This document shows positions 4,697 to 28,698 of a stretch of 43,120 nt of DNA, piece after piece. The first letter of the stretch is position 1; every line of letters starts with the position of its first letter. The DNA comes from Acetobacteraceae bacterium AT-5844 (GTDB lineage: Bacteria; Pseudomonadota; Alphaproteobacteria; Acetobacterales; Acetobacteraceae), in the NCBI GenBank assembly GCA_000245075.1, contig JH600053.1, forward strand, positions 150,472 through 193,591, read 5' to 3'. The notes beneath the pieces are model-generated. The model did not search any database. It worked only from the letters and a program-made list of their open reading frames with translations, and was not told the DNA's origin. The translations under genes were made by a program, and so were the position numbers.

Positions 4697-5707
4697 TCAA
4701 TCATCAGCCTTTCGCCGTGTACTTCCCCGTTCCATGATCTCGAAGCCAAGGTCGATATGCTTCGTGGGAAGAACCTCCTGGTTCAACAGTCGTAACAGCA
4801 CTTCGCCCGCCTTTCGCCCCATGCCAGCGCGGTCGACACGCACCGTGGTCAAGGGCGGGTTGACGGCGGAGGCGATCGGAAGATCGTCGAAGCCGGCAAT
4901 ACCCAGCTGTTGCGGAACAATGATGTTGCGGCGCTGGCATTCCAATATGGCGCCCACCGCCATGACATCTGTTGAGGCGAGAACGAGGTCGATAGGGCGG
5001 CCGATCTGCAACATGCGCGTGATGGCATCAGCACCCCCCATGAAGCTGTTCTGGCAGTGAAGAACTGCATCTTGAGTGTCCAGACCAAGCTCCGCGCAGC
5101 CTGCCAGGTAGCCTTGTAGCCGGCCTTCCATGCGGTCGTTCGGTTCCCCGGCGCTGGTCACGACCACGACATGCCGATGCCCACGCGCATGGAGCAGGTG
5201 CGTGAGCTGGCGGGCGGCCTCAAAATTGTCGTATCCGACCGTATAGTCGATGGGGTCGTCCGTCAGATTGGCGCCTTCAACGACCGGAATGCCACTGCGC
5301 GCCAGCAACCGCCTGGTCTCGGGGGAGTGCCAGGTCCCGGTAACGTAGAAGGCATCCGGGCGGCGTGCCAGGAAGGCCTGCACGATCTGCTCCTCGCGTT
5401 CCATCGAGTAGCCGCAATGGCCGATCATCAGCCTGATGCCGTTCTCGTGCAGAATATCGCTGAGGCCTTGCACGACCTCGGCATGCAAGGTGTAGCCCGC
5501 GGCCGGGATCACGGCGCCGATCATGCCAGTCCTGTTCGCGGCCAGTCCGCGCGCTACCAGGTTGGGCATGTAGCCCAGCTCCTTGATGCAGGCGAGCACC
5601 CGCTTCCGCGTTTCGGGAGAGACGTTGCTCGACCCGTTCAGCACACGGGATACGGTTCCCGCACCGACATTGGCGAGCTTCGCCACATCGGCGATTTTGA
5701 CGTTCAT
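4697..5707 (-). CDS. LacI family transcriptional regulator
   Basis: LacI/GalR repressor, 336 aa from the ATG at 5707; the frame is open further upstream but that extension is non-conserved. Residues 3-24 form the helix-turn-helix (KIADVAKLANVGAGTVSRVL), followed by the hinge LGYMPNLVARGLAANRT and a type 1 periplasmic-binding-protein-like effector domain ending in the usual AGFDDLPIASAVNPPLTTVRV segment. It is divergent from the 6015-16401 operon. Between them lies a perfect 14-bp palindrome typical of this family (5825-5838), so it very likely represses that operon until an inducer, probably the imported substrate or an early intermediate, binds. Repression rather than activation is inferred from the operator position just after the promoter. 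Confidence 0.93.
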   Translation of the reverse strand: MNVKIADVAKLANVGAGTVSRVLNGSSNVSPETRKRVLACIKELGYMPNLVARGLAANRTGMIGAVIPAAGYTLHAEVVQGLSDILHENGIRLMIGHCGYSMEREEQIVQAFLARRPDAFYVTGTWHSPETRRLLARSGIPVVEGANLTDDPIDYTVGYDNFEAARQLTHLLHARGHRHVVVVTSAGEPNDRMEGRLQGYLAGCAELGLDTQDAVLHCQNSFMGGADAITRMLQIGRPIDLVLASTDVMAVGAILECQRRNIIVPQQLGIAGFDDLPIASAVNPPLTTVRVDRAGMGRKAGEVLLRLLNQEVLPTKHIDLGFEIMERGSTRRKADD

Positions 5708-5791
5708 CGGCCCTCTCTGCGGTGGCAGCCCACCCTTATCCCTTATGTCAGCCCGGGCCCTCAGCCAAGGGCAGGGGGCAGATATATTGCC

Positions 5792-5821
5792 TTGACAGCC
5801 CCGGGAGACCGAATCTAGACA
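5792..5821 (+). promoter_or_regulatory. Predicted sigma-70 promoter for the LacI-controlled operon
   Basis: A consensus -35 box TTGACA at 5792-5797 is followed, with an 18-base spacer, by TAGACA at 5816-5821 as a weak -10. The downstream LacI-type palindrome starts four bases later, so a bound repressor would cover the transcription start. The -35 match is seen; promoter activity is inferred. The whole gene-free stretch 5708-6014 holds this promoter, the operator and a leader of about 180 bases in which I see no further structure. Confidence 0.55.
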
Positions 5822-5824
5822 ATA

Positions 5825-5838
5825 TGGAAGCGCTTCCA
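5825..5838. promoter_or_regulatory. LacI-family operator TGGAAGCGCTTCCA
   Basis: Perfect 14-bp palindrome with the central CG step that is the hallmark of LacI/GalR-family operators. It lies between the divergent LacI gene (start 5707) and the SDR gene (start 6015), immediately after the predicted -10 box. It is the only such site I noticed in the window, which argues that this regulator serves this one operon and possibly itself. Confidence 0.85.
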
Positions 5839-6014
5839 AATAGTAATGCGATGGCGCGGGAGACGTTCCCAGAGACGAGCAAGTTGCGCGCAACTGCCGG
5901 TCGATGCTCCATGCCTGAAACCAGGCTTTGGCGGGGCCGGCAGCGCTGACTCCAGCCTCTCTTGCACTCTCCCGTTTGCTGCATCGCCTGAGCAGGGTCG
6001 GAGAGTCTCTTTCC

Positions 6015-6770
6015 ATGTCGCATATCGCTTCCGCACAGCCGCTGGCCGGCCAGACCGCAATCGTGACGGGCGGTGCCAAGGGCTTCGGCCTGGGCATCGC
6101 GCGCCGCCTCGCCGAGGCGGGCTGCCGGATTGTGCTTTGGGACCTGGGCTTCCAGGGCTTCGATCCCGCTGAGGCAGGCTTCACGCCGCTATTGCAGCAG
6201 GTTGTGGATGTCTCGGACGCGGAGGCCGTGGAGCTCAGCTTCGCGGAGGCCCTGCGGGCAGCGGGTCAGATTGAGATCCTGGTCAACAACGCCGGCATCA
6301 ATGGCCCCATCAGCTCCACATGGGAGTATCCCCTGGAATCCTGGCGCCAGGTGCTGTCTATCGATCTGGACGGCGTCTTCCATGGCTGCCGTGCCGTGCT
6401 GCCGCATATGCGTGAACGTGGCTATGGGCGCATCGTCAACATCGCCTCCATCGCCGGCAAGGAAGGAAACGCGGGCGGCAGCGCCTATGCGGCGGCCAAA
6501 GGCGGTGTCATCGCCTACAGCAAATCCATCGCGAAGGAGCTGGCTGGCTCTGGCGTGTTGGTGAATTGCGTCGCGCCCGCCATGGCCGAGACCGACCTGC
6601 TGCGTGAGATGACGCCGGAATTCATCGCCACCACCAAGGCGAAGATTCCGATGGGACGCTTCCTGCGCGTCGAGGAAGTCGGGGAGATGGTCGCCTGGAT
6701 CGCCAGCCCGGCTTGCAGCTTTACCACCGGCTTCACCTTCGACCTGACCGGCGGCCGGGCAACCTACTGA
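6015..6770 (+). CDS. SDR family oxidoreductase
   Basis: Classical short-chain dehydrogenase/reductase, 251 aa, cytoplasmic, NAD(P)-dependent oxidation of an alcohol or reduction of a ketone. Seen: the cofactor loop TGGAKGFGLGIA (residues 18-29), the NNAG motif, and the catalytic Ser and YxxxK in NIASIAGKEGNAGGSAYAAAK. The Asp in LWDLGF at the end of beta-2 favours NAD over NADP. The start at 6015 has GGAGAG nine bases upstream; the frame is open to 5928 but lacks conservation. First gene of the LacI-controlled operon, so probably the first catabolic step: oxidation of a hydroxyl on the imported compound (inference). The substrate is unknown. Confidence 0.93.
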   Translation: MSHIASAQPLAGQTAIVTGGAKGFGLGIARRLAEAGCRIVLWDLGFQGFDPAEAGFTPLLQQVVDVSDAEAVELSFAEALRAAGQIEILVNNAGINGPISSTWEYPLESWRQVLSIDLDGVFHGCRAVLPHMRERGYGRIVNIASIAGKEGNAGGSAYAAAKGGVIAYSKSIAKELAGSGVLVNCVAPAMAETDLLREMTPEFIATTKAKIPMGRFLRVEEVGEMVAWIASPACSFTTGFTFDLTGGRATY

Positions 6771-6842
6771 CGAACTGACTGCACAGGCGGCGCCGAACAA
6801 TGGGGGAGAACCCCGCGCGAACCAAGGGGGAGAGGCGTATCC

Positions 6843-8570
6843 ATGAATCCGATGGCATTGAATCAGGTACGTACGGGGTGGCCGTGCATATCGCTTCTCT
6901 CGATCCCGTCGCGTGTCCTGGCGCAGACGGGGTGGCTGGGGTTGTTCTGCATCGTGCTGGTGGCGCTGGTGGCCATGCCGCTCATGGCACTGATGTTGCG
7001 GGGCTTCCTTGGCACGGACTCCGATGGCCGCCTCATGCTCACGCTGGAGGCTTTCCGCATCGTTCTGGCCGAGGGCGGCTATTGGATGGCGATGTGGAAC
7101 ACTTTCGTTGTCTCCATCGGCACCATGCTGGTCGCCACGCTGATGGGTGTCATGCTGGCCTGGTGCCTGGTCCGAACCAATGTGCCGTGGGCCGGATTAC
7201 TGGAACAACTTGCGGCGATGCCGATTTTCATCCCGCCTTTCATCGGCGCCTTCGCCTGGGTTCTGATCGGCGCGCCGCGTATCGGCCTTGCCAACCTCCC
7301 TTTCACCCAGGCCGGCCTCGCGCAGCCCTTCGATATCTACACTTATGCCGGCATCACCTGGACCATGGGCATCTACATCGCGCCCTATGTGATGATGATC
7401 GTTGCCGCGGCACTGCGGAACATGGACCCTAGCCTGGAGGAGGCGGCGCAGGTCAGTGGCCTCAGCCGCCTGCGCACCATGCTGACCGTCACCCTGCCCG
7501 TTGTCGCGCCCTCCATCCTGTCGGGTGCTGTGCTGGCCTTCGTCATCGGCATCGGGTTGTTCGGCACGCCTGTCCTTCTCGGCATGACCAAGGAAATCTA
7601 TTTGGTCACCACGCGCATCTATCTGGAGTTGCAGCAATATCCACCCAGCTACGGCATCGTCGCCGTTCTGGCCCTCTACCTGATGTTGCTGTCCGTGGTG
7701 GCGAACCTGCTTCAGCGCTGGGTACTCCGTGGCCGCTCCTTCGTCACGGTCACGGGAAAGGGCTTCCGCCCGCGCGTCATCAAGCTTGGCTTTTCGCGCT
7801 TTGCCGTGGCGGGCGGCATCTGGCTTTACCTGGTGCTCACTGTCATTGCGCCGGTCGCGGTCATCACGGTCGCCGCTGTTTCGACTTATACGTGGTCCGG
7901 CGTCTTTACCTGGGCCCATCTGGCCTTCCTGTGGGAGTCGCCGGATGTTGCTGCCACGCTCTGGAACAGCGTGCTGATCACCATCATCGCCGCCACGGCG
8001 ACGACGGTGCTGGGCCTTGCCGTTTCCTGGGTTACAACGCGTACGCGCATGATGGGCCGTGGGCTGGTCGAAGACCTTGTGCTGCTGCCGATGTCGGTGC
8101 CCAGCCTGGCCTTCGCGCTCGGCGTCAGCTTCTTCTGGCTGTGGATGCCATGGAGCGTCTACGGCACGGTTTGGATCATCATCATCGGCCTGGTGGGGCG
8201 CTACGTCAGCTATTCCGTGCGCGCCATCACCAGCAGCCTCGTGCAGCTGCATCCGGAGCTGGAGGAAAGTGCGCGGGTCTGCGGCTATGGCTGGTTGCAG
8301 ACGATGCGGCGGATCACGCTGCCGCTCGCCATGCCCGCGATCATCTCAAGCTGGGTCATGGTCTACAGCATCTTCATCTCTGAGCTCTCCATGGTCCTGC
8401 CGCTTTACACGGCGGATACGCGGACGATCTCGATCCTCAGCTTTGACACCTGGGCCGTGGGCCAGTTCCCGCAGGTTGCTTCGCTCTCGCTGCTGCAGCT
8501 CGTCCTGGGTGTGGGCGTCATGTACGCCGTCACGGGCCTGACGCGCCGCCGCAGCCTGGCCGCGGCCTGA
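6843..8570 (+). CDS. ABC transporter permease, fused two-domain (FbpB-like)
   Basis: Inner-membrane permease of 575 aa containing two homologous halves, each with a cluster of about six hydrophobic segments and an EAA cytoplasmic loop: SLEEAAQVSGLSRLRTM in the first half and ELEESARVCGYGWLQTM in the second. This fused form is typical of iron(III)/putrescine-type importers, where one polypeptide replaces a permease dimer. A GGGGGAG ribosome-binding site precedes ATG 6843. It belongs with the ATPase at 8602 and the binding protein at 9716, which together make a complete importer inside the LacI operon. Its place among oxidative enzymes argues for an organic substrate rather than iron. Confidence 0.93.
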   Translation: MNPMALNQVRTGWPCISLLSIPSRVLAQTGWLGLFCIVLVALVAMPLMALMLRGFLGTDSDGRLMLTLEAFRIVLAEGGYWMAMWNTFVVSIGTMLVATLMGVMLAWCLVRTNVPWAGLLEQLAAMPIFIPPFIGAFAWVLIGAPRIGLANLPFTQAGLAQPFDIYTYAGITWTMGIYIAPYVMMIVAAALRNMDPSLEEAAQVSGLSRLRTMLTVTLPVVAPSILSGAVLAFVIGIGLFGTPVLLGMTKEIYLVTTRIYLELQQYPPSYGIVAVLALYLMLLSVVANLLQRWVLRGRSFVTVTGKGFRPRVIKLGFSRFAVAGGIWLYLVLTVIAPVAVITVAAVSTYTWSGVFTWAHLAFLWESPDVAATLWNSVLITIIAATATTVLGLAVSWVTTRTRMMGRGLVEDLVLLPMSVPSLAFALGVSFFWLWMPWSVYGTVWIIIIGLVGRYVSYSVRAITSSLVQLHPELEESARVCGYGWLQTMRRITLPLAMPAIISSWVMVYSIFISELSMVLPLYTADTRTISILSFDTWAVGQFPQVASLSLLQLVLGVGVMYAVTGLTRRRSLAAA

Positions 8571-8601
8571 CGCAACGTACCGGACGGAAAAGGAGAATAT
8601 C

Positions 8602-9672
8602 ATGGGCGTCCGCATCCAGTCGTTGACCAAGGCTTTCGGCGAACTCAGGGCGATTGACGACCTGAGCACCGGATTCCAGACCGGCAAGATCTCCGTCCTG
8701 CTGGGCGCCAGCGGCTGTGGCAAGACCACGACGCTGCGCTGCATCGCGGGGCTGGAGCAGCCGGATAGCGGCGAGATCCTCATCGATGACGAGCCGGTCT
8801 ATGCTTCCGCCCGGCGTATCGATCTGGCGCCGGAGCAGCGCCGCCTGGGCATGGTGTTTCAGTCCTACGCCATCTGGCCGCATTTGACGGTGGCCGAGAA
8901 TGTCGGCCTGCCGCTCAAGGCCCAGAAGGTGGCCAAGGCGGAGATTGAGCGTCGGGTGAAGGACACGCTCGCCATCGTCGGCCTCGCGCAGCATGCGGAT
9001 AAGAGCGCGACGAAGCTGTCCGGCGGGCAGCAACAGCGTGTCTCCATCGCGCGTTGCCTCGTCGGCGATCCACGCCTGATCCTGATGGATGAGCCGCTCA
9101 GCAATCTCGATGCCCGCCTGCGGGTGGAGATGCGGCATGAGATCCGGCAGATCCAGCGGCGCACCGGCGCCACCATCCTGTTCGTCACGCACGATCAGGA
9201 GGAGGCCATGTCGCTGGGGGACGAAATCTTCCTCTTCAACAAGGGGAAGGTGGTGCAGAACGGCGCGCCGGAGGAGCTCTATTTCCGGCCCTCCGTCCGC
9301 TACGTCGCCGAGTTCCTTGGCAAGGCCAATCTCTTTCCCGTTTCGGTGCGGGGGGGCGCGGAGTCCGGGCTGGTCACCGCCCGGCCATCCGGCCAGGTCA
9401 TCGCCCAACTTCCGGGTTCCTCGCAGGCTGCGGGCGAAATGCTCTGCATGGTCCGTCCGGAATCCTGGCGCGTCTCACCGGCTGGCGGCCCCGGGCTGCC
9501 CGGACGCGTGCAGGAGACAACCTTCGTGGGCGACCGGCGCGAGTTGCGCGTGGAAACCCCGATCGGCGAGCAGACGGTGGTGACCGCCGGCTTCGAACGC
9601 TTCGAGGTCGGCGAGGGTCTCTCGCTGACCGTGGCACCCGAACATGCCCACCTGCTCCGGGATGCCGCCTGA
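8602..9672 (+). CDS. ABC transporter ATP-binding protein
   Basis: ATPase subunit, 356 aa, of the CUT1/iron/spermidine type. Walker A GASGCGKTT (35-43), Q-loop FQSYAIWPH (87-95), signature LSGGQQQR (139-146), Walker B RLILMDEPLSNLD (158-170) and H-loop THD (196-198) are all intact. A C-terminal TOBE-type domain (about 245-350) is present, as in importers for sugars, polyamines and iron. Strong ribosome-binding site AAGGAG seven bases before ATG 8602. It energises the fused permease just upstream. Confidence 0.96.
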   Translation: MGVRIQSLTKAFGELRAIDDLSTGFQTGKISVLLGASGCGKTTTLRCIAGLEQPDSGEILIDDEPVYASARRIDLAPEQRRLGMVFQSYAIWPHLTVAENVGLPLKAQKVAKAEIERRVKDTLAIVGLAQHADKSATKLSGGQQQRVSIARCLVGDPRLILMDEPLSNLDARLRVEMRHEIRQIQRRTGATILFVTHDQEEAMSLGDEIFLFNKGKVVQNGAPEELYFRPSVRYVAEFLGKANLFPVSVRGGAESGLVTARPSGQVIAQLPGSSQAAGEMLCMVRPESWRVSPAGGPGLPGRVQETTFVGDRRELRVETPIGEQTVVTAGFERFEVGEGLSLTVAPEHAHLLRDAA

Positions 9673-9715
9673 GCCTGACGATACATCTGCAATCAACATG
9701 ACAGGGAAGACGCTC

Positions 9716-10777
9716 ATGAATCACAAGACGACACGCCGCCGGGCACTGCTTGGCCTCGCCATGGCCGGTGCCACCGTCGCCATGCCCGCCCGGCTGCGCG
9801 CCCAGGCCACCGGTCAGGATCTGGTCGCCGCCGCCGAGAAGGAAGGCCAGTTGGTGGTCTATGGCGACCCCTTCACCGTACCGCTGCTGGTGAAGGCCTT
9901 TGGCGCCCGGTACCCGCGTATTCGCGTGACGTCCGCGACGGGCGATGGCTGGCAGATGTACAACCGCTTCGTCTCCGAGACGCGGTCCGGCCGGCCGTTG
10001 ATGGATGTGATGTACCAGGCCGAGGACACGGTCATCACCGCGCGTAACGCAGGAAGCCTCGCCGATTTCGACATGGCGCGCTCCAGCGACTTCCTGCCGG
10101 CCGCCATCCCGGCGAGCGGTGGCTATGTGCGCGGCAATGCCAACCTCATTCTGTTCGCCTGGAACAAGACCGCCATGGCGAATATTCCTACGCCGAAGGA
10201 TTGGACGGACTTCGCCACCCCGCCCTCTGCCTGGACGGGGCTGATCGCTACCACCAACCCGGCCTCTTCCTCCTCAACTTTCGCCACCATCGCCAGCCTC
10301 TATCAGAAGTTCGGCGTGGAGAAGGGGGGCGAGATCCTGCGCGGCCTGCGTCAGGCGAAGGCGGAGCTGAACCCCGCCATGGGCGTGATGACGACGAAGT
10401 TGCAGACCGGCGAACGGCCGATCAGCTTCTTCAACATCACCACGGCGGTCTCCGGTATCCTGCGGCAGGGCGCGCCGGTCACGCTGACGGTGCCGGAGAG
10501 CGGCGGCGTCGCGCAGTTCAACGCCCTGGGCATCAGCCGCACGGCGCCGCACCCGAATGCCGCGCACCTGTTCACCGAATTCGCCCTCAGCGCGGAGATG
10601 CAATCGGCCTTCGTCGCCGCTGGCGTGCACGGGCTGCGGAAGGACTCCGCGACGCCGGAAGGGATGCCCGCCCTGGCCGGCATGAAGCTGATCGACCTGG
10701 ACCTGCCGCAGGCTCTCAAGGACCGCGATGCGATCCTCGCCTGGTGGTCCAGCAACACCGGCTTCAGCTTCCGCTGA
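9716..10777 (+). CDS. ABC transporter substrate-binding protein (iron(III)-type fold)
   Basis: Periplasmic receptor of the importer, 353 aa. It begins with a signal peptide carrying a run of arginines before the hydrophobic core (TTRRRALLGLAMAGATVA), which could use the Tat or Sec route; cleavage is likely near LRAQ. The mature part opens with DLVAAAEKEGQLVVYG, typical of the FbpA-like binding proteins. I see no adjacent tyrosine pair of the kind that coordinates iron in FbpA, which supports an organic ligand. ATG 9716 has AGGGAAG about seven bases upstream; ATG 9698 is also in frame. It completes the permease-ATPase-receptor set of the LacI operon. Confidence 0.92.
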   Translation: MNHKTTRRRALLGLAMAGATVAMPARLRAQATGQDLVAAAEKEGQLVVYGDPFTVPLLVKAFGARYPRIRVTSATGDGWQMYNRFVSETRSGRPLMDVMYQAEDTVITARNAGSLADFDMARSSDFLPAAIPASGGYVRGNANLILFAWNKTAMANIPTPKDWTDFATPPSAWTGLIATTNPASSSSTFATIASLYQKFGVEKGGEILRGLRQAKAELNPAMGVMTTKLQTGERPISFFNITTAVSGILRQGAPVTLTVPESGGVAQFNALGISRTAPHPNAAHLFTEFALSAEMQSAFVAAGVHGLRKDSATPEGMPALAGMKLIDLDLPQALKDRDAILAWWSSNTGFSFR

Positions 10778-10811
10778 TGTGCCGGTCGGACAGAGCCTGG
10801 CGGGAACTGAC

Positions 10812-11681
10812 ATGATCTGTCCCCCCGAACTGCGGCAGGTTTCAGTGGCCAACCTCACGGTTGGCCGGCTGGAGCCGGTGCGCTTCATCGAGGAGGGCGC
10901 GGCGGCCGGGTTCGGCGCCGTGGGCCTCCTGCTGGCCAGCGCGACGCCACAACCGCTGGAGCACGAGATCGCCGGGCGGCCTGACGTCATGCGCGCCGTC
11001 AAGGCGGCCCTGCGCGAAACCGGCCTGCGCGTCTTCGATGTTGAGGCCTTCGTCCTTTCCCCGGACGCAAGCATCGAAGCCTACCGCCCCTATCTGGAAG
11101 CGGGGGCTGAGCTGGGCGCGACGCATCTTTCCAGCGTCGGCACGCAATGGTTGGGCAATAGCCGCTTCCTCGAACCGAGCGAGCGGATCGATCTGTTCGC
11201 GCGGCTGTGCGAGGAGGCGGAGCGCTTCGGCCTGCATGTCGGGGTGGAGTTCATGCTCTATCGCGACATCCGCACCTGGCGCGATGCGCTGGATCTGGTC
11301 GAGGCCGCCGGCCGTCCGAATGCCGGGCTGATCCTCGACATGCTGCACCTGCATCGCGCGGGCACGCTGCCGGCGGAACTTGCCGCCGTGCCCGCCAACC
11401 GCATCGCCTATGCGCAGATTTGCGATGTGGCCGGGCCGTCGCCGGCGCTCGACGACCTGCCGGTGGAGGCGCGCACCGCGCGCCTGCACCCGGGCGATGG
11501 CGATATCCCGCTGCGTGGCTTCCTGAAGCTTTTGCCAGAGACCACGCCCCTGGTGATCGAGACGCCGGTTCCCGCTGAGGCCGGTCTGCCCACGGCGGAG
11601 CGTCTGCTATCGGCCGCCAGCCATGCGCGCGCTTTTCTTGGTGCCCATCGTGCCACGCCTTCCCTGGAGACTCCGGCATGA
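10812..11681 (+). CDS. Sugar phosphate isomerase/epimerase-like TIM-barrel protein
   Basis: 289 aa member of the xylose-isomerase-like TIM-barrel (AP endonuclease 2) superfamily, which includes sugar epimerases, hydroxypyruvate isomerase, inosose dehydratase and AsbF/QuiC-type 3-dehydroshikimate dehydratases. Candidate metal ligands are Glu in VGVEFMLYRD, Asp and His in LILDMLHLHRAG, the site around YAQICD and the last Glu in PLVIETP. The start ATG 10812 follows GCGGGAA. Its stop overlaps the AroQ-like gene by four bases (ATGA), so the two proteins are probably made together. In this setting, beside an AroQ homologue and an SDR, a dehydroshikimate-dehydratase-like or cyclitol-dehydratase-like role is more likely than sugar-phosphate isomerisation (inference). 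It is a distant paralogue of the protein at 15562. Confidence 0.85.
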   Translation: MICPPELRQVSVANLTVGRLEPVRFIEEGAAAGFGAVGLLLASATPQPLEHEIAGRPDVMRAVKAALRETGLRVFDVEAFVLSPDASIEAYRPYLEAGAELGATHLSSVGTQWLGNSRFLEPSERIDLFARLCEEAERFGLHVGVEFMLYRDIRTWRDALDLVEAAGRPNAGLILDMLHLHRAGTLPAELAAVPANRIAYAQICDVAGPSPALDDLPVEARTARLHPGDGDIPLRGFLKLLPETTPLVIETPVPAEAGLPTAERLLSAASHARAFLGAHRATPSLETPA

Positions 11682-12127
11682 GCAAGCCGATCTACGTTCT
11701 GAATGGCCCCAACCTGAACCTGCTCGGCGAGCGGGAGCCGGAGATCTACGGCTACGATACCCTGGCCGATATCGAGGTACGTTGCGCCGCCCGCGCCGCG
11801 CAGGCGGGCATGACCATCGATTTTCGTCAGACCAATTTCGAAGGCGAGATTGTCGAGGCCGTGCATGAGGCGCGCCGCAAGGCCTGTGGCATCGTCATCA
11901 ATCCCGCCGGCCTCAGCTTCTTCTCGGTGTCGCTGCTCGACGCCCTCAAATCCTTCGCGGGCCCAAAGGTGGAAGTGCATCTGACGAACATTCACCAGCG
12001 GGAACCGCTTTATCACCACTCCCTGATCTCCAAGACGGCGCATGCGGTGATCGCGGGGGCCGGTGCCTTCGGCTATGAGATCGCCATCGATGCCCTGGTC
12101 CACCGGCTCGTGGCCAAGGCCGCCTGA
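11678..12127 (+). CDS. aroQ: Type II 3-dehydroquinate dehydratase homologue with altered substrate site
   Basis: 149 aa, the usual length of type II dehydroquinase, with the opening YVLNGPNLNLLGEREPEIYG. By alignment to the Mycobacterium tuberculosis enzyme (numbered without its Met), the catalytic residues are kept: Asn12, Arg19, Tyr24, Asn75, Asp88 and His101 (VEVHLTNIH). Two residues that hold dehydroquinate are not: His81 is Phe (INPAGLSFFSVS, normally LTHTS) and Arg112 is Tyr (REPLYHHS, normally EFRRHS or EFRHHS). The chemistry of anti-dehydration through an enolate may be kept while the substrate differs. It lies inside a LacI-controlled catabolic operon, overlapping the TIM-barrel gene before it, not in a biosynthetic setting. 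A housekeeping shikimate-pathway role is unlikely; quinate-type catabolism or a new dehydratase is my reading. Confidence 0.85.
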   Translation: MSKPIYVLNGPNLNLLGEREPEIYGYDTLADIEVRCAARAAQAGMTIDFRQTNFEGEIVEAVHEARRKACGIVINPAGLSFFSVSLLDALKSFAGPKVEVHLTNIHQREPLYHHSLISKTAHAVIAGAGAFGYEIAIDALVHRLVAKAA

Positions 12128-12143
12128 GCGAGGAGTGCAGCCG

Positions 12144-13847
12144 GTGTCCGAGGCTTGGGATGATGAGGTCGATCTTCTGGTGATTGGCGCGGGCGTGGCG
12201 GGCATGACCGCCGCACTGGTGGGCGCGCTGGAAGGGTTGCGTGTCCTGCTCTGCGAGAAGACCGATATGGTCGGCGGCATCACCGCCACCTCCGGCGGCA
12301 CCATCTGGGTGCCGGGCAGTTCGCAGAGCGTGCGGGCCGACGTGCCCGATTCCAGCGCCGACGCCGCGCGCTACCTGGCCTCCGTCATCGGCGCGCGCGG
12401 CGGCGAGGCGCAGCGCGCCGCCTTCCTGGAAGCCGGTCCCCTCGCGCTCGATGATCTGGAAGCGCGCACCGATGTCCGCTTCGTGGCGGCGCAGGCGCAT
12501 CCGGATTACCTGGGCAATCACCCTGGCGCGGCTTTCGGTGGCCGCGCGCTGGGCCCGGAACCGTTCGATGGGCGCCTGCTGGGGGCCGATTTCGACCGGG
12601 TGCGCCCGCCGCGCCCGGAATTCCTGGTTCTGGGCGGCATGATGGTGGCGCGCACGGATATCGCCCCGCTGCTGAAGCCCTTTGCCTCCCGCGCCAATCT
12701 GTCGCAGGTCGTGCGGCTGCTGACACGGCAGGCGCGGGATCGTCTGCGCTATCGGCGTGGCACCCGGCTGGTGATGGGCAATGCGCTGGTGGCGCGGCTG
12801 CTGCACAGCCTTCGCCGGCAGGGCGTACCTATCAGGTTCGGCACCGGCCTCGCCGAGCTGGTGCGGCAGGGCGGGCGCGTGGTTGGCGCCGTGCTGGAAG
12901 GCCCGGCCGGCCGTCGGCGCATCCGTGCCCTGCGTGGCGTGATGCTGGCAACGGGTGGTATCGCGTGGAACCCGGTGTTGCGTGAGCAACTCTTCCCCGA
13001 GGCGGCGCGCCCGCTCAGCCTGGCGCCGGAGACGCATACCGGGGATGGTATCGCCACAGGTCTGCGCAGCGGTGCCGCGCTGGACGCGGAGATGGACAGC
13101 CCTGGGCTGTGGATGCCGTGCTCGGTGCTGGAAAGGCCGAACGGCACACGCGCCGTCTGGCCGCATATCCTGCTGGACCGTGCCAAGCCCGGCCTGATCG
13201 CGGTGAACAGCACCGGCCGCCGCTTCGTGAATGAGTCGGATTCCTACCACGATTTCTGCATGGGCATGCTGCGGGCCCAGGAAACCGCGCCGAGCATCCC
13301 GGCCCACCTGATCTGCGACCGCAGTTTCATCCGCGACTACGGCATCGGGCTGGTGCACCAGGGAACCCGGCGGCTGGCGCCCTTCATCGACGCCGGCTAC
13401 CTGATCGAGGCCCCCACGCTGCGGGAGCTGGCCGGCCGCATCGGCGTCCCGCCGGAGGCGCTGGAACAGACCGTCGCCGAGCACAACCGCTTTGCCGAGA
13501 CCGGGGTGGACGAGGCCTTCGGCAAGGGCAGCAGCCCGATGAACCGCTTCAATGGCGACGCCGGGCACGGCCCCAATCCCTGCCTCAGGCCGATCGGGCC
13601 GGGGCCCTTCTATGCCGTGGCCGTCCGACCCGCCGAACTGGCAGGCAGCGCCGGGCTGCGCGCTGATGGGGATGGCCGCGTGCTGGATACCGCGGGGCAG
13701 CCCATCGAGGGGCTCTATGTCGGCGGTAACGATATGGGCTCGATTTTCCGTGGCACTTATCCCGGGCCGGGAACGACGATCGGCCCCGCCATTGTCTTCG
13801 CCTGGCGCACCGCGCGCCACGCCGCCGGCATGACGCCCGCGCTGTGA
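12144..13847 (+). CDS. KstD-like FAD-dependent dehydrogenase 1
   Basis: 567 aa flavoprotein of the fumarate reductase/3-ketosteroid delta-1-dehydrogenase family. The Rossmann motif VIGAGVAGMTAAL (about residues 13-25) and the EKTDMVGGITATSGGTIW segment bind FAD; the C-terminal LYVGGNDMGSIFRGTYPGPG closes the site. The Tyr and the Gly four residues later in TYPGPG match the pair that promotes enolisation in KstD, and Tyr in NESDSYHDF fits the position of its catalytic base (by recall, not alignment). Expected reaction: 1,2-dehydrogenation next to a ketone. GTG 12144 has AGGAG eight bases upstream; ATG 12063 is in frame but lies inside the AroQ-like gene. It is followed by a paralogue. Confidence 0.9.
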   Translation: MSEAWDDEVDLLVIGAGVAGMTAALVGALEGLRVLLCEKTDMVGGITATSGGTIWVPGSSQSVRADVPDSSADAARYLASVIGARGGEAQRAAFLEAGPLALDDLEARTDVRFVAAQAHPDYLGNHPGAAFGGRALGPEPFDGRLLGADFDRVRPPRPEFLVLGGMMVARTDIAPLLKPFASRANLSQVVRLLTRQARDRLRYRRGTRLVMGNALVARLLHSLRRQGVPIRFGTGLAELVRQGGRVVGAVLEGPAGRRRIRALRGVMLATGGIAWNPVLREQLFPEAARPLSLAPETHTGDGIATGLRSGAALDAEMDSPGLWMPCSVLERPNGTRAVWPHILLDRAKPGLIAVNSTGRRFVNESDSYHDFCMGMLRAQETAPSIPAHLICDRSFIRDYGIGLVHQGTRRLAPFIDAGYLIEAPTLRELAGRIGVPPEALEQTVAEHNRFAETGVDEAFGKGSSPMNRFNGDAGHGPNPCLRPIGPGPFYAVAVRPAELAGSAGLRADGDGRVLDTAGQPIEGLYVGGNDMGSIFRGTYPGPGTTIGPAIVFAWRTARHAAGMTPAL

Positions 13848-13864
13848 CGAAGGAGGACGACATC

Positions 13865-15565
13865 ATGCGGCGACGTGTCGAATGCGACCTGCTTGTGGTC
13901 GGCTCTGGCGCGGGCGGGCTATCGGCGGCGGTCACCGCTGCCGCACAAGGCCTGAAGGTGGTGGTGGCGGAGAAGGAGCCGGTGTTCGGCGGCACCACCG
14001 CCTGGTCGGGCGGCTGGATGTGGCTGCCGCGCAACCCGCTGGCGCGCGCCGCTGGCATTCTCGAGGAGATCGACGCGCCGCGCGACTATCTCCGCCACGT
14101 TCTCGGCAATAATTTCAACGCGGCGAAAGTGGAGGCCTTCCTGGAAGCCGCGCCACGCATGGTCGCATTCTTCGAGGACAGGACCGCGCTGCGCTTCGAG
14201 GCCAACAACCGCATCAGCGACACCTATGGCAACATGCCAGGGGCCGGGACCGGCGGCCGCTCGCTGATCGCCGCGCCATACGACGCGCGTGGGCTCGGGC
14301 CCTTGGTCCGCCAGTTGCGGCGGCCCATGCGGGAGACGACCTTCCTGGGCATGACCATCCAGGCCGGGCCGGACCTGGGTGCCTTCATGAACGTCACCCG
14401 CTCACCGCGCGCCTTCGCCCATGTGGCGCGGCGCTTCGGGCGCCATCTGGTGGACCTGGCCCGGCATGGAAGGGGGATGCAACTGCGCAACGGCATCGCC
14501 CTGGTCGGGCGGTTGCTGCGCTCCGCGGCCGATCTCGGCGTCGATCTGCGGACTGGGGCGCCGGCCTTGCGGCTGCTGAATGCCAGTGGCGCCGTCCAGG
14601 GCGCGGTGCTGGGCACGCCGGAGGGGGAGGTGGAGGTGCATGCCCGGCGGGGCGTGGTGCTGGCCGCCGGTGGCTACCCACATGATCTCGCGCGGCGGCG
14701 GGACACCTTCCCGGCGGGCGGCGAGAACTGGACGGTCGCCGTCCCTTCCGCCACAGGCGACGGCCTGCGCCTGGGCGAGGCCGCCGGTGGCACGGTGGAT
14801 GCCACGCTGGCCGCGCCGGGCGCCTGGTGCCCCGTCTCGCTGGTGCCCTTCCCGGATGGCACGACCGGCCGCTTTCCGCACATCATCGAGCGCGGCAAGC
14901 CCGGCATCATCGGCGTGCTGGCGGATGGGCGGCGCTTCTGCAACGAGGGCGACGGCTACCACGACTACGTCGCGGCCATGCTGCGCGCCGTGCCGCCGGG
15001 GCAGGAGGTCGCGTCCTGGCTGGTCTGCACCCGCGCCTTCCAGCGCCGCTACGGGCTGGGAATCGCGCGGCCGGTGCCGCTGCCCGTCGGGCCCTATATC
15101 CGCTCCGGCTACATCAAGACGGGCCGCACCATTGCCGAGCTGGCCCGGAACTGCGGCATCGACCCCGCCGGGCTGGAGCAGACCCTGGCCACCTACAACG
15201 CCCATGCCCGCAAGGGGGAGGACCCTGCCTTTGGCCGTGGCGGCACCCCTTACAACCGCTTGCAGGGCGACCCCACCCATGGTGGCCCCAACCCCTGCGT
15301 GGCGCCGATCGAGCACGGCCCCTTCTACGCGGTGAAGGTGGTGCCCGGCAGTTTCGGCACCTTCGCCGGGCTGAAGACCGATGCTCAGGCCCGCGTGCTG
15401 GATGCGGCTGGCGCGCCTATCCCCGGCCTCTATGCTGCCGGCACCGACATGGCGAGTGTCATGGGCGGCCATTACCCGGCCGGTGGCATCAATCTTGGCC
15501 CCGCCATGACCTTCGGCTTCATCGCCGGCCTGCATGCCGCAGGAGCAGGAGAGATTTCCCCATGA
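13865..15565 (+). CDS. KstD-like FAD-dependent dehydrogenase 2
   Basis: 566 aa, same family and layout as the preceding gene: VVGSGAGGLSAAVTAAAQG at the N-terminus, EKEPVFGGTTAWSGGWMW, NEGDGYHDY, and the C-terminal LYAAGTDMASVMGGHYPAGG with the Tyr/Gly pair kept. The two proteins are clearly related but far from identical, so they look like an old duplication with distinct roles, for example two successive ring desaturations. ATG 13865 is preceded by AGGAGG at 13851-13856, eight bases away; a GTG at 13844 overlapping the previous stop is in frame but has no such site. The stop overlaps ATG 15562 of the next gene (ATGA). Confidence 0.9.
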   Translation: MRRRVECDLLVVGSGAGGLSAAVTAAAQGLKVVVAEKEPVFGGTTAWSGGWMWLPRNPLARAAGILEEIDAPRDYLRHVLGNNFNAAKVEAFLEAAPRMVAFFEDRTALRFEANNRISDTYGNMPGAGTGGRSLIAAPYDARGLGPLVRQLRRPMRETTFLGMTIQAGPDLGAFMNVTRSPRAFAHVARRFGRHLVDLARHGRGMQLRNGIALVGRLLRSAADLGVDLRTGAPALRLLNASGAVQGAVLGTPEGEVEVHARRGVVLAAGGYPHDLARRRDTFPAGGENWTVAVPSATGDGLRLGEAAGGTVDATLAAPGAWCPVSLVPFPDGTTGRFPHIIERGKPGIIGVLADGRRFCNEGDGYHDYVAAMLRAVPPGQEVASWLVCTRAFQRRYGLGIARPVPLPVGPYIRSGYIKTGRTIAELARNCGIDPAGLEQTLATYNAHARKGEDPAFGRGGTPYNRLQGDPTHGGPNPCVAPIEHGPFYAVKVVPGSFGTFAGLKTDAQARVLDAAGAPIPGLYAAGTDMASVMGGHYPAGGINLGPAMTFGFIAGLHAAGAGEISP

Positions 15566-16401
15566 CAGCGCTGTCGCTCGCCCATCTCACCGTGTTGTCC
15601 CTGCCGCCGCCGGAGATGATCCGGCTGGCCGCCCGTGTGGGCTACTCCCATGTCGGCCTGCGCCTGATTGCCGTGACGGAGACCAGCCCCGGCTATCCGC
15701 TGATGGATGACCCGGCGATGCTGCGCGAGACGAAGGCGGCGCTGCGCGACACCGGCATCGGCGTGCTGGATATCGAGTTCGTCCGGATTACCCCGGAGAC
15801 GGATGTGGCGGCGCTGGAGCGGGTGGTCGCGGCGGGGGCAGAACTGGGGGCTCGTCATCTGGTCACCGCCCCCTACGACCCTGACCTGGCGCGGCTGGCG
15901 GACCGCTTTGGCGGTATCTGCGACCTCGCTGGGCGGTACGGCCTGTCACCCGTGCTGGAATTCTTCCCCTGGACCGTGGTGCCCGGGCTGGCGGATGCGG
16001 CGAAGCTTCTGGATGCCGCCGGCCGGGAGAATGCGGGCATCCTGGTCGATGCCCTGCATTTCGATCGTTCGGCCAGCAGCCTCGCGGATCTCAGCCGCCT
16101 GCCAGAGCGCTGGCTGCCCTTTCTGCATCTCTGCGACGCCCCGGCGGCACGGCCGGACACGACGGAGATGTTGTTGCACCAGGCCCGCGCCGAGCGTCTG
16201 CCACCGGGCGAGGGTGGCCTCGACCTGCCAGCCCTGGTCGCGCATATGCCGGCCGGCATTCCCATGGTGCTGGAAGTTCCGATGACGGCGCTGAGCCAGG
16301 AGGCCGGCCCTGAAGAGGTTGCCCGCCGCGCCCTCGCGGGTGCGCAGCGGCTGCTGGAGAGATATCCGGCCGGAGAGAGCCGCAACAGACAAGTAGGGTA
16401 G
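15562..16401 (+). CDS. Second xylose-isomerase-like TIM-barrel protein
   Basis: 279 aa, sugar phosphate isomerase/epimerase superfamily. Segments typical of the family: VGYSHVGLRLI at strand 1, GIGVLDIEFVRI, a candidate metal Glu in SPVLEFFPW, Asp and His in ILVDALHFDRSAS, FLHLCDAP, and the final Glu in PMVLEVPM. The layout matches the protein at 10812 (same PETDVAALERVVAAGAELGARHL-type helix and the same HLCD/ICD site), so the operon carries two divergent members. Last gene of the LacI operon, four-base overlap with the second flavin dehydrogenase. It could be a dehydratase or an isomerase acting on the oxidised ring. Gene 16556 beyond it is on the opposite strand, so the operon ends here; I see no convincing terminator in 16402-16555. 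Confidence 0.85.
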   Translation: MTALSLAHLTVLSLPPPEMIRLAARVGYSHVGLRLIAVTETSPGYPLMDDPAMLRETKAALRDTGIGVLDIEFVRITPETDVAALERVVAAGAELGARHLVTAPYDPDLARLADRFGGICDLAGRYGLSPVLEFFPWTVVPGLADAAKLLDAAGRENAGILVDALHFDRSASSLADLSRLPERWLPFLHLCDAPAARPDTTEMLLHQARAERLPPGEGGLDLPALVAHMPAGIPMVLEVPMTALSQEAGPEEVARRALAGAQRLLERYPAGESRNRQVG

Positions 16402-21065: not shown

Positions 21066-22016
21066 TTACCCGGCCGGACTGGTCAGCAGAAAGTAGTCCA
21101 GCACGAGCCGCGCGGTATCGGCCAGCACGGCATCCCGCGCCTCCACTGGCAGCGGGGAGCCCTTGACGTAGGCCACCAGCGCTACGGTGCCGCGCTCATT
21201 CGGCAGGGTCAGGAAGCCCAGATCGTTGGCCGTGCCGGTGCCGCTGCCGGTCTTGTGCGCCACGGCGATGCCGGCGGGCAGGCGGGCGCGAATGCGGGTG
21301 GCGCCAGTAGAGGTGCGGGCCATCATGGCCAGGATGGTGTCCCGCGCCGCCGGCTCGATGCCTTCGCCAGCCCAGAGGCGGGCCAATAGCGCCAACATCG
21401 CCCTGGGGGTCGCGTGATCGCGGTTGGGGTGGCCGTAATCGGAATTCGGGTCGCTGGCGCGGCTGCGCGCATTATGTTGGTCAGGCGGCAGGTCGCGCAG
21501 CGCATCGCGCATGGAAACGTCGGACGGTGGCAGCGGAATTTCATGCATGACGCACAAAGCTTCCCGCATCGTGCGCTTCACCTCGATGTCGCGGAGGCCG
21601 ATCGCGTGCATATGCGCCTGCACCGCTGCCGTGCCGCCGGCGACGCGGAACAGCACGTCGGTCGCGCTGTTGTCGCTACGGGTGATGGTGGCTTCAAGCA
21701 GGTTCAGGACGGAAAGCGCGATGCCATCATGCGGAAACTCGCCGCCCAGCGGGCCAAGCGGCGTCATCTCCTCGGGGCGGATGGAGACCATGTCGGTGAG
21801 GGCCAGCCGCCCCTGGCGCGCCAGGTCGAGGATGGTGAGTACCAGCGTCATCTTGATGGTGCTGGCCATGGGGAAGCGGGCTTCGCCTTGCACCGAAAGC
21901 TCGGCGCCCGTGCCGAGATGGCGCGCGGCGATGCCGACCTCGCCCTGGCAATAGGCGGCAATGCGGCGAATCTCCGCCTCGGCATTGGCACGCAGCATAT
22001 CGGGCATGATGGTCAT
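21066..22016 (-). CDS. Serine hydrolase, beta-lactamase fold, cytoplasmic (paralogue 1)
   Basis: 316 aa protein with the three active-site boxes of class A-type penicillin-recognising enzymes: Ser52-Thr-Ile-Lys55, Ser114-Asp-Asn116 and Lys255-Thr-Gly257, at normal spacing. There is no signal peptide (MTIMPDMLRANAEAEI), unlike real beta-lactamases and PBPs, and no clear ExxLN omega-loop motif; Glu152 in TMREALCVMHE is the nearest acid. It therefore probably hydrolyses an amide, lactam or ester inside the cell rather than defending against antibiotics. Its start overlaps the stop of the gene after it in the operon, the MatB-like ligase at 22013, consistent with release of an acid that the ligase activates. 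It is a clear paralogue of 27748-28698 (shared TRSDN-ATDVLFR and MREALCVMHE). Confidence 0.85.
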   Translation of the reverse strand: MTIMPDMLRANAEAEIRRIAAYCQGEVGIAARHLGTGAELSVQGEARFPMASTIKMTLVLTILDLARQGRLALTDMVSIRPEEMTPLGPLGGEFPHDGIALSVLNLLEATITRSDNSATDVLFRVAGGTAAVQAHMHAIGLRDIEVKRTMREALCVMHEIPLPPSDVSMRDALRDLPPDQHNARSRASDPNSDYGHPNRDHATPRAMLALLARLWAGEGIEPAARDTILAMMARTSTGATRIRARLPAGIAVAHKTGSGTGTANDLGFLTLPNERGTVALVAYVKGSPLPVEARDAVLADTARLVLDYFLLTSPAG

Positions 22017-26890: not shown

Positions 26891-27748
26891 TCAGCCAATC
26901 CGGTCCCAGGCCGCGCGGGTGATGCGCGCTAGGGTAAGCGCGGCCGTGCTGAGACCCGGCATCCCGTCTGGCATCGATGCCGGCACATTATGCGTGTAAC
27001 CCGCGATAATGAACAACGGCCGGTCGTCCCGATAGACCAACCCGACATCCATTCTACCGTTCCTGCCGGTGCCAGTCTTGTTGGCAACCTTGGCGCCCTG
27101 GGGCAGAAAGAAGGGAATGCTGCCGCGCAGCATCTGCCAACTCAGAATATCCAGCGCCAGGCGGCACAGCTCTGGCGTCACGCCAAGGCGCGCGGCGGCC
27201 GCGGCGCCGCTGCTGCCTTCCAGGATCAGGCGCATCAACAGCCCCTGGTCATTGGGCGTGGTCTGCGCGACGAAATCGAACTCCGCATCCATCGGCATGT
27301 CGCGGGGCGGAACGACATGGTTGATGGTGGTGTTGACCATGCCGGCGCGTGTGCAGAAATCCTGTAGTTCGGCCACGGTCATGATTTCGCCGAGCAGTCC
27401 GGTGCAGACATTGTCGCTACAGATGATCATCTGCACGATCACGTCCCGCAGCGTCAGCGTAAATCCAGGCGTCATGTAGTTGAGCACGCCGGATGGCACG
27501 CCCTCCATCAGGTGCGGGCCGGCCACCAGCTTCTGGTCCAGGCTCAGGCGGCCTTCATGCACCGCACGCAGCGCCGCCATCATGAAGGCGATTTTGCGCG
27601 TGCTGGCGGAGGGGGTAGGGATATCACCACGCCGGTCGGCCGCCGCGCCGGTGGTCAGATCATGCAGGTGCCAGCTGGTCGTGAAAGGCTGCGCCTGGGT
27701 GATCTCGTCAAGGGCCGAGGCGATCTCGGCGATCGGAGCGGAAGGCAT
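26891..27748 (-). CDS. Serine hydrolase, beta-lactamase fold, cytoplasmic (third member)
   Basis: 285 aa. Active-site boxes Ser49-Thr-Arg-Lys52, Ser111-Asp-Asn113 and Lys224-Thr-Gly226 are present. It begins MPSAPIAEIASALDEI with no export signal. It is more distant from the other two hydrolases than they are from each other, and is nearer in style to general beta-lactamase-like amidases (GFTLTLRDVIVQMIICSDN). Its ATG at 27748 shares one base with the stop of paralogue 2, so the two are translated from one message. Possibly they form different specificities, or a hetero-oligomer, for one substrate family (inference). Last gene of the MmgE-receptor-hydrolase operon. Confidence 0.85.
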   Translation of the reverse strand: MPSAPIAEIASALDEITQAQPFTTSWHLHDLTTGAAADRRGDIPTPSASTRKIAFMMAALRAVHEGRLSLDQKLVAGPHLMEGVPSGVLNYMTPGFTLTLRDVIVQMIICSDNVCTGLLGEIMTVAELQDFCTRAGMVNTTINHVVPPRDMPMDAEFDFVAQTTPNDQGLLMRLILEGSSGAAAAARLGVTPELCRLALDILSWQMLRGSIPFFLPQGAKVANKTGTGRNGRMDVGLVYRDDRPLFIIAGYTHNVPASMPDGMPGLSTAALTLARITRAAWDRIG

Positions 27749-28698
27749 CAGGCGGCCTCCGGCGACGTGATCAGCAGAAAATAATCGTAGATGAGGCGGG
27801 TGATGTCGGCGACTACGACTTCCCGTTCAGCCATGCTGCGTGGAGATGCCTTGACCTGCACCGAAATCGCGAAGGTCCCGCGCCCAACGGGCAAGGTGAT
27901 GAAGCCCACATCCGAGCAGGTACCGGAGCCGGAGCCGGGCTTCGTGCCCCCCACCACACCTTTAGGCAGCCGGGCGCGGATGCGGTTGAAGCTGGGCGTG
28001 CGCTGCATGATGGGCAACAGCAGCTCACGCGTGCGAGCGGAGACGCCATCCAATTGGTACAGGCGCCGCAGCAATTCCAGCATGGCCAGCGGCGTGCAAT
28101 GGTCGCGCACGCTGAGCTGGTAGTCAAAGCCGGGGCCATGGGTGCGCTCGCGTGCGTCCATTACCTCGGGAGGTTGGTCGCGCAGCAGGGTGCGGATGGA
28201 GACATCGGACGGCGGCAGAGACAATTCGTGCATAACGCACAGCGCCTCGCGCATCGACAGGGTGACGTCGAAGTCGTCGATGCCAATGTCCCGCAGCCAT
28301 GCCTGGACGGCGGCGGGGCCGCCCGCCAGGCGGAACAGTACATCCGTCGCCGTGTTGTCGCTACGGGTGATGGTGACCTCGATGAGGTTGATCAGCGATA
28401 GCGCCACGCCGGCATGCACGAACTCGCCACCCAGCGGACCGGAAGAGGTCATTTCCACATCATCGACCTCGATCATGTCGTCGAGGCTCAGCTCGCCTCG
28501 GTCCACCATGGCGAAGATGCAGAGCACCAGGGCCATTTTGATGGAACTGCCGGGCGGGTAGCGGCCATGCTCGCCAAAGCCGATGGCTTCGCCGGTTTCC
28601 ATGTGCAGCGCGGCGACGCCGGTTTCGCCCTCGGCAAAGGCGGCGATACGGGCGATCTCGGCCTTGGCCGAGGCTTGCAAGGCAGGAAGCAATGTCAT
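27748..28698 (-). CDS. Serine hydrolase, beta-lactamase fold, KPG variant (paralogue 2)
   Basis: 316 aa, same length as paralogue 1 at 21066 and similar along the whole chain (for example SDNTATDVLFRLAGGPAAVQAW and SMREALCVMHELSLPPSDVS). Boxes one and two are normal (Ser51-Ser-Ile-Lys54; Ser113-Asp-Asn115), but the third reads Lys253-Pro-Gly255 instead of KTG/KSG, which removes the hydroxyl that normally helps bind the substrate carboxylate. No signal peptide. It lies seven bases after the second SBP_bac_5 gene and shares one base with the third hydrolase. An altered specificity, or a non-catalytic partner role, is possible. Confidence 0.83.
   Translation of the reverse strand: MTLLPALQASAKAEIARIAAFAEGETGVAALHMETGEAIGFGEHGRYPPGSSIKMALVLCIFAMVDRGELSLDDMIEVDDVEMTSSGPLGGEFVHAGVALSLINLIEVTITRSDNTATDVLFRLAGGPAAVQAWLRDIGIDDFDVTLSMREALCVMHELSLPPSDVSIRTLLRDQPPEVMDARERTHGPGFDYQLSVRDHCTPLAMLELLRRLYQLDGVSARTRELLLPIMQRTPSFNRIRARLPKGVVGGTKPGSGSGTCSDVGFITLPVGRGTFAISVQVKASPRSMAEREVVVADITRLIYDYFLLITSPEAA

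Follow-up and report, generated by a model that had tools for sequence, protein, structure and literature searches.

What would an operon under apparent LacI control degrade if it joins a dehydroquinase to two flavoproteins related to 3-ketosteroid delta1-dehydrogenase (KstD)? The operon lies in a 43,120 nt stretch of Acetobacteraceae bacterium AT-5844, here called the window, which corresponds to positions 150472-193591 of contig C144 in a genome of 5.19 Mb. A divergent LacI gene, a LacI-type palindrome and nine co-directional genes form an apparent single operon (4697-16401), encoding an ABC importer, an SDR dehydrogenase, two xylose-isomerase-like barrels (TIM1 and TIM2), a type II dehydroquinase (AroQ) and two KstD-like desaturases (FAD1 and FAD2). 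We suggest, at a probability of about 0.58, that this LacI-controlled operon serves the uptake of hydroaromatic carboxylic acids and their aromatisation to protocatechuate. The substrates would be relatives of quinate and shikimate, and reduced members of that group, for example dihydroshikimate or 3,4-dihydroxycyclohexanecarboxylate, are most likely among them. The sequence itself shows which genes are present, how the operon is laid out, to which families its products belong, which catalytic residues are conserved and, in relatives, the linkage to protocatechuate genes; from these we infer substrate, step order, product and the ligand of the regulator. The pathway class is fairly well supported, more so than the substrate and the order of the enzymes.

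Linkage of FAD1 relatives to protocatechuate genes

Protocatechuate as the end point is the best reading because nine of the 22 close FAD1 loci, from five genera (Gluconacetobacter, Paracoccus, Xinfangfangia, Gemmobacter and Aminobacter), hold pca, LigAB-like or QuiC-like genes, and because the host carries pcaHG on the same contig as the operon. The FAD1 query gave 18 loci in genome contigs, from Roseomonas, Caballeronia, Paracoccus, Gluconacetobacter, Paraburkholderia, Xinfangfangia, Gemmobacter, Aureimonas, Aminobacter, Nisaea and Burkholderia; it also matched 153 plasmid records, from which 12 hand-picked regions were opened. The close set consists of 17 genome-contig loci at 58-83% FAD1 identity and five plasmid loci at 61-63%, and families were scored by tblastn at E 1e-10 with hand-set identity limits in fetched flanks of up to 10 kb.

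In Gluconacetobacter (L012) pcaDC, pcaB, pcaG, pcaH and a gene for a PcaR/PcaU-type regulator (pcaR model), each over its curated cut-off, lie inside the cassette, flanked by FAD2 and NIPSNAP on one side and by IclR, FAD1, TIM, Gfo/Idh and FAD2 on the other; L013 is arranged in the same way. Paracoccus sp. MA (L101) and MKU1 (L017) have pcaG, pcaH, pcaC and pcaD at most 10 kb from FAD1, and in strain MA these four, FAD1, FAD2, SDRs and a QuiC-like gene fit within 20 kb. QuiC-like genes were also located in L016, L019, L020 and L027. In Aminobacter (L022) genes for LigB- and LigA-like subunits stand about 1.3 kb from FAD1, both under the equivalog cut-offs and the LigB-like one over subfamily cut-offs. 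The host pcaH (C144:94981-95643; 350.9 bits, cut-off 296.4) is followed by a pcaG-like gene about 55 kb upstream of the window, and pcaH exceeds its cut-off in eight of the nine FAD1-carrying genomes examined.

The surroundings of FAD1 relatives thus form a cassette that recurs with its genes shuffled; it includes FAD2, TIM barrels, SDR, Gfo/Idh, shikimate-dehydrogenase-like (SDH-like) genes and unrelated importers. Counted over the 22 close loci, FAD2 and SDH-like genes occur in 14 each, an epimerase-type oxidoreductase in 13, Gfo/Idh in 12, a TIM2-type barrel and IclR in 11 each, SDR in 10, NIPSNAP in 9, QuiC-like genes in 5 and pca in 4. With the loci that had supplied the queries removed, the counts become 13/21 for FAD2, 12/20 for SDH, 12/21 for the epimerase type, 11/21 for Gfo/Idh, 10/21 for IclR, 9/20 for TIM, 8/21 for NIPSNAP, 4/21 for QuiC-like and 2/20 for pca. 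Ten distant loci (FAD1 46-57%) held FAD2, SDH, QuiC-like, pca or AroQ genes in none, TIM in one, Gfo/Idh in two and SDR in three; it should be noted that L081 (FAD1 57%, other context) was assigned to this group by hand, and that L106, with a FAD2-type match of only 44%, scored nothing.

Whether the enzyme genes keep company in other genomes had been set beforehand as the test that could refute the idea of a common pathway, and their relatives do so across Alpha- and Betaproteobacteria. As for the order of the genes, sub-blocks recur, namely AroQ-Gfo-TIM-FAD1 (L073, L071), FAD1 with TIM2 (L008), SDR/TIM1/FAD1 (L080) and FAD2 adjoining FAD1 (L026, L078, L079); the complete order of the window was present in no fetched locus. 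In one genome (G006) the cassette parts stand on two contig ends, each carrying part of a Gfo gene, which are probably one locus. At E 1e-150 FAD1 occurs in 10 of 299 family genomes and 5 of 398 phylum genomes, the host included in both, and in none of the seven other genomes of the host genus among the 299. The cassette was not described in the open-licence literature searched.

The SDH-like proteins of the cassette seem to be without one serine of what we take to be the serine motif of the carboxylate site in shikimate dehydrogenase. Further, a family of 228-235 amino acids (L080:6512-7213, L135:10663-11346 and L086:9861-10565; 33-35% mutual identity, no Pfam match in the three) adjoins FAD1 cassette genes or follows a Phe/Tyr AroQ-TctC pair, and might supply an isomerase or tautomerase that the pathway otherwise lacks.

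Enzymes of the operon and the proposed route

FAD1 (12135-13847, plus strand) and FAD2 (13844-15565, plus strand) both match FAD_binding_2. The former scores 737.5 bits with PRK12843 (cut-off 758) and the latter 897 bits with PRK06134 (cut-off 747), and against the desaturase models of the Chc route they reach 420 and 500 bits for ChcC2 (cut-off 900) and 302 and 297 bits for ChcC1 (cut-off 1000). FAD1 holds all four KstD catalytic positions (Tyr119, Tyr318, Tyr487 and Gly491), whose roles are described in PMC5348764; FAD2 holds three, with Thr at the Tyr119 position. We propose both as ketone-dependent ring desaturases: they resemble KstD in family and catalytic residues, and differ from it in that a steroid substrate is unlikely by context and FAD2 has no Tyr119 counterpart.

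The window FAD2 clusters with Gluconacetobacter FAD2 (support 0.991). Within the genus, five of 17 genomes, the host among them, carry a FAD2 relative, and three of the five fetched loci (L126-L128) are a different cassette of FAD2, SDR and Liv importer; in the host this second flavoprotein locus lies at L126:9340-12897 on contig C63. An EthD protein was seen in L126 (by Pfam) and in L128 (by eye), the L126 copy having a methylmuconolactone-isomerase-like domain.

The SDR (6015-6770, plus strand; Pfam adh_short_C2), for which we propose oxidation of a ring hydroxyl, scores 174 bits with the model of cis-4-hydroxycyclohexanecarboxylate dehydrogenase, ChcB2 (cut-off 350). Its relatives at 71-76% identity share the locus of FAD1 in L009 and L010 (about 9 kb apart) and in L080 (adjacent). 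TIM1 (10812-11681) and TIM2 (15562-16401), both on the plus strand and matching Pfam AP_endonuc_2, are xylose-isomerase-like barrels, TIM1 being a proposed dehydratase or isomerase. TIM1 reaches 50 bits with the QuiC model (cut-off 1200), which leaves the operon without a recognised QuiC; its predicted structure (pLDDT 89) has the QuiC-type 5hmq among its top three structural neighbours. In alignments of 15 and 13 barrels Glu146, Asp176 and Glu250 are invariant and Gln202 nearly so, TIM2 having His in its place; these four residues are presumably the metal tetrad of xylose-isomerase-like (QuiC/IolI class) barrels.

The dehydroquinase (11678-12127, plus strand) scores 171.7 bits with DHquinase_II and 198.6 bits with NF003806 (cut-off 171) and retains Arg19, Tyr24, Asn75, Asp88, Glu99, His101 and Arg108; from the NF003806 score and these residues it is predicted to be a dehydroquinate dehydratase. 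Two positions depart from the type II contact set, His81 being Phe and Arg112 being Tyr. According to PMC6011038 these two residues touch the C5 hydroxyl of the substrate. The earlier note had read the changed site as the sign of an unusual substrate. The change is real, and it belongs to a whole clade and not specially to this operon: in a tree of 43 rows the 22 Phe/Tyr sequences form one clade (support 0.996), and the pair is in no other row. The window AroQ falls inside a subclade of nine members (support 0.965), as do all eight closest other AroQs in the 299 family genomes (59-71% identity). Nine genomes hold this subclade, and the six with FAD1 at 69% or above are all among them; since these six represent four genera, they are not six independent cases.

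We looked at 15 loci with a Phe/Tyr AroQ, of which ten were picked by similarity to the AroQ of L135, one was L135 itself and four were further loci. A QuiC-like gene is present in eight and SDH in 11; FAD1 or FAD2 is matched in two of them, by FAD1 in L135 and by a 44% fragment in L146, and in none of the other 13. The same residue pair is hence found in AroQs of apparently ordinary dehydrogenase-AroQ-QuiC blocks. The QuiC reaction takes away the C5 hydroxyl. Since AroQs of this clade adjoin QuiC-like genes, we discarded Phe81/Tyr112 as evidence on the substrate, and with it the idea that the pair marks a substrate without C5 hydroxyl, which tree and neighbourhoods both speak against. The AroQ clue is weaker than it had looked, and the genomic linkage is stronger than the earlier note could know.

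What appears unusual here is the coupling of this AroQ to KstD-type desaturases, found in three other loci, one outside the family. AroQ and FAD1 stand together in the window, in L071, in L073 and, in another family, in L135, where the TRAP genes are followed in a row by AroQ, a gene for a DABB-type protein and FAD1, and where AroQ lies on the other side of the clade from the window; we regard L135 as a separate case of the coupling. Eighteen AroQ loci of the family Acetobacteraceae held no FAD1, FAD2 or cassette-type SDH, another shikimate-dehydrogenase type in four, QuiC-like genes in two and pca in one.

Two further observations concern AroQ neighbourhoods. AroQs of the window subclade have a polar-amino-acid-type ABC importer immediately ahead of them or close by in L073 (7616-9203), L074, L075 and L076, called from SBP_bac_3 by Pfam in L073 and by eye in the others, with FAD1 only in the fetched stretch of L073. 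A gene of the M24/Xaa-Pro peptidase family adjoins AroQ/TIM or TIM genes (L070:1470-2660, L105:12392-13555), hence the substrate could be amide-linked.

In the route we propose, the ABC importer would bring in the acid and the SDR would turn a ring hydroxyl into a ketone. AroQ would eliminate the C1 hydroxyl of dehydroquinate-type ketones, and the TIM barrels would dehydrate or isomerise the resulting hydroxyketones in the manner of QuiC or IolI. Like KstD and ChcC, FAD1 and FAD2 would take hydrogens from positions adjoining the ring ketone, and this oxidation would aromatise rings with too few hydroxyls for aromatisation by dehydration. Protocatechuate would then feed the pca pathway. In terms of formula, a ring with one hydroxyl fewer than 3-dehydroshikimate gives protocatechuate when two hydrogens are lost. 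We name the dihydroshikimate class as a likely substrate because reduced quinate products occur in nature: according to PMC13204703 (2026), lactic fermentation may convert quinic acid to dihydroshikimic acid. More tentatively, and with the odds somewhat against it, we speculate on a desaturative branch of quinate use, in which a catabolic-type dehydroquinase hands its enone to a KstD-type flavoprotein and the ring is oxidised instead of losing the C5 hydroxyl, so serving reduced acids or making gallate. Reduced acids would need such a branch because their hydroxyls are too few for the classical route; if it exists, one would expect growth on dihydroshikimate, 3,4-dihydroxycyclohexanecarboxylate or 5-deoxyquinate-type acids, or gallate from dehydroshikimate.

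Plausibly the operon extends two known kinds of pathway. With the quinate/shikimate pathway (quinate dehydrogenase, AroQ/QsuC, QuiC) it shares oxidation, dehydroquinase dehydration, a barrel of the QuiC fold and the pca lower pathway, whose protocatechuate dioxygenase the genome encodes. It differs in having an SDR (by Pfam) in place of an SDH-type quinate/shikimate dehydrogenase, in having no full-length QuiC, and in adding two KstD-type desaturases, an extra barrel, LacI control and an FbpABC-type importer. The SDH-TRAP-AroQ-QuiC-like blocks with the Phe81/Tyr112 pair (L140-L143, L145, L146, L085, L087), found in the host's and other alphaproteobacterial families, have AroQ of the same clade in a catabolic setting, with a TRAP importer and a full-length QuiC-like gene where the operon has an ABC importer and desaturases. 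The other pathway is that of the chc cluster of Sinomonas cyclohexanicum (Yamamoto 2021, as cited in PMC9795900), which aromatises cyclohexanecarboxylate; one dehydrogenation and two consecutive desaturases lead to 4-hydroxybenzoate (PMC9795900). Common to both are a dehydrogenase and two ketone-dependent ring desaturases feeding protocatechuate, whereas chc has a P450 and 4-hydroxybenzoate where the operon has AroQ and two TIM barrels, and the window proteins fall under the Chc equivalog cut-offs and include no P450.

Layout, control and uptake

The gene content described in the earlier note is all there: every named gene is an intact reading frame of a family with a significant Pfam match, and for the nine plus-strand genes NCBIfam confirms the families as well. 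The gene for the LacI-family regulator (4697-5707, minus strand; Pfam LacI and Peripla_BP_3) is present as claimed, outside the span of 5708-16401 that had been given for the operon. Its top NCBIfam models are GntR/IdnR gluconate-type repressors, with a score under the cut-off. It diverges from the nine plus-strand genes, which span 6015-16401; as three junctions overlap by 4 bases (TIM1/AroQ at 11678-11681, FAD1/FAD2 at 13844-13847 and FAD2/TIM2 at 15562-15565), we argue that the nine form one transcript.

Between lacI and the SDR gene lies a perfect 14-base palindrome, TGGAAGCGCTTCCA (5825-5838, no strand assigned), as a putative LacI-type operator. Allowing up to two mismatches it has one match in the window, with 0.17 expected, and it is the sole exact copy in the genome. 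One mismatch gives three further genomic sites and a reversed control pattern gives seven, hence only the exact copy near lacI is taken as meaningful. The palindrome is inside the spacer of the single sigma70-like promoter match of the region (5816-5844), for which the chance expectation is 0.2.

The importer genes, all on the plus strand, encode a fused two-domain permease of the iron/2-AEP/putrescine-type family (6843-8570; two BPD_transp_1 stretches in one polypeptide, 174.7 bits with the NCBIfam PhnU2 model, cut-off 593), an ATPase with a TOBE domain (8602-9672; Pfam ABC_tran and TOBE) and a periplasmic binding protein of the FbpA/AfuA-like family (9716-10777; Pfam SBP_bac_8/SBP_bac_6). 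The nearest solved chains of the binding protein are 7f6u, 6wce and 4r72; the best of its solved relatives are titled iron-binding, and a pyridoxal-phosphate binder ranks below them. An iron ligand, which would speak against the earlier note's reading, is thus possible.

Elsewhere in the window, read from the sequence, three beta-lactamase-like serine hydrolase frames stand among CoA-ligase/enoyl-CoA-hydratase-like genes (21069-22016, 26894-28698), and a cut-off frame at 42438-43118 resembles a benzoylformate-type thiamine-diphosphate decarboxylase.

Alternative pathways and meaning of the cassette

Several points weigh against the route to protocatechuate. Ordinary quinate use needs no desaturase, and AroQ beside two desaturases lacks a proven reason. 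The coupling of AroQ to FAD1 rests on few cases, because AroQ was in none of the 22 close FAD1 loci (tblastn of fetched flanks) and L071 and L073 both come from a single genus; L135 showed neither a recognisable dehydrogenase nor a TIM barrel next to AroQ and FAD1. The window operon has no SDH, QuiC or Gfo/Idh, although these are frequent members of the cassette in other loci, and the Chc and QuiC model scores of the window proteins are far below the cut-offs. Four of the five QuiC-like proteins of the cassette span the QuiC model at full length with 625-648 bits, also under its cut-off of 1200. That cut-off is strict: neither in relatives nor on host contig C112 do the full-length QuiC-like proteins reach it (625-781 bits). 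Nor are the loci independent samples, with Paracoccus represented several times and Caballeronia and Gluconacetobacter twice each, and several of the queries were themselves drawn from loci that were counted. The pcaHG genes of the host are weak evidence, as pcaHG is common in soil bacteria. Contig C112 holds its QuiC-like gene (781 bits, with one TAA inside the matched stretch) together with pcaDC-like and SDH-like matches, and hence an ordinary quinate route may exist beside the operon.

Gallate is the main rival product, because the LigB gene of the host is a gallate dioxygenase by NCBIfam. Ordinary quinate or shikimate would be oxidised and dehydrated to 3-dehydroshikimate, which FAD1 (or FAD2) would dehydrogenate to gallate for cleavage by that enzyme; general chemistry allows it, as 3-dehydroshikimate minus two hydrogens is gallate by formula, and plants make gallate from dehydroshikimate (PMC4892741). 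The fused LigB-LigA gene of the host (C144:138284-139507, L136:7285-8508; NF009904 548 bits, cut-off 412) lies about 16 kb upstream of lacI, near genes for a PobA-like hydroxylase, an isochorismatase-like hydrolase and a Liv-type importer, and the AroQ-DABB-FAD1 block of L135 would suffice if dehydroquinate were imported. LigB-family dioxygenase genes occur, however, in only four of the nine FAD1-carrying genomes against the eight with pcaH, and the host dioxygenase as query matched one of the 22 close loci, L022, where LigB and LigA are separate and the gallate model is under its cut-off; we consider the gallate route unlikely.

Still less probable is a Chc-like route, in which the SDR would oxidise hydroxycyclohexanecarboxylates, two desaturations would give a hydroxybenzoate, and AroQ and the TIM barrels would only widen the range. 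Such a route is described (PMC9795900), its ChcC2 and ChcB2 models are matched by FAD1, FAD2 and the SDR, PobA is near FAD1 in 3 of the 17 genome-contig loci, and Azospirillum loci with a more distant FAD1 hold a 3-hydroxybenzoate 6-monooxygenase and gentisate dioxygenase. On the other hand, the matches to the ChcB2 and ChcC models reach at most about half of the curated cut-offs, none of the ten proteins of the operon is a P450 hydroxylase by Pfam, and the presence of AroQ and of SDH-like neighbours points to rings with more oxygen. A cyclitol or sugar-acid pathway with no hydroaromatic link, of which LacI, the sugar-isomerase-like barrels and the importer family might be signs, is very improbable, as AroQ keeps the dehydroquinase catalytic set, the linkage goes to pca, QuiC-like and SDH-like genes, and we know of no cyclitol route in which KstD-type desaturases have a role. 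The earlier proposal of a hydroaromatic or cyclic polyol system is hence retained in its first part, where quinate-like and Chc-like enzymes co-occur with pca, QuiC-like and LigAB-like genes, and disfavoured in its second because of these same neighbours.

Aerobic genes for the use of reduced hydroaromatic acids of the dihydroshikimate class were not described in the open-licence literature searched. A defined cassette in relatives of Gluconacetobacter, Paracoccus, Rhizobium and Burkholderia would make such use testable, and would hint at what FAD-dependent oxidoreductases, TIM barrel proteins and NIPSNAP proteins with only broad annotations do. It would also provide a bio-based conversion of hydroaromatics into protocatechuate or gallate.

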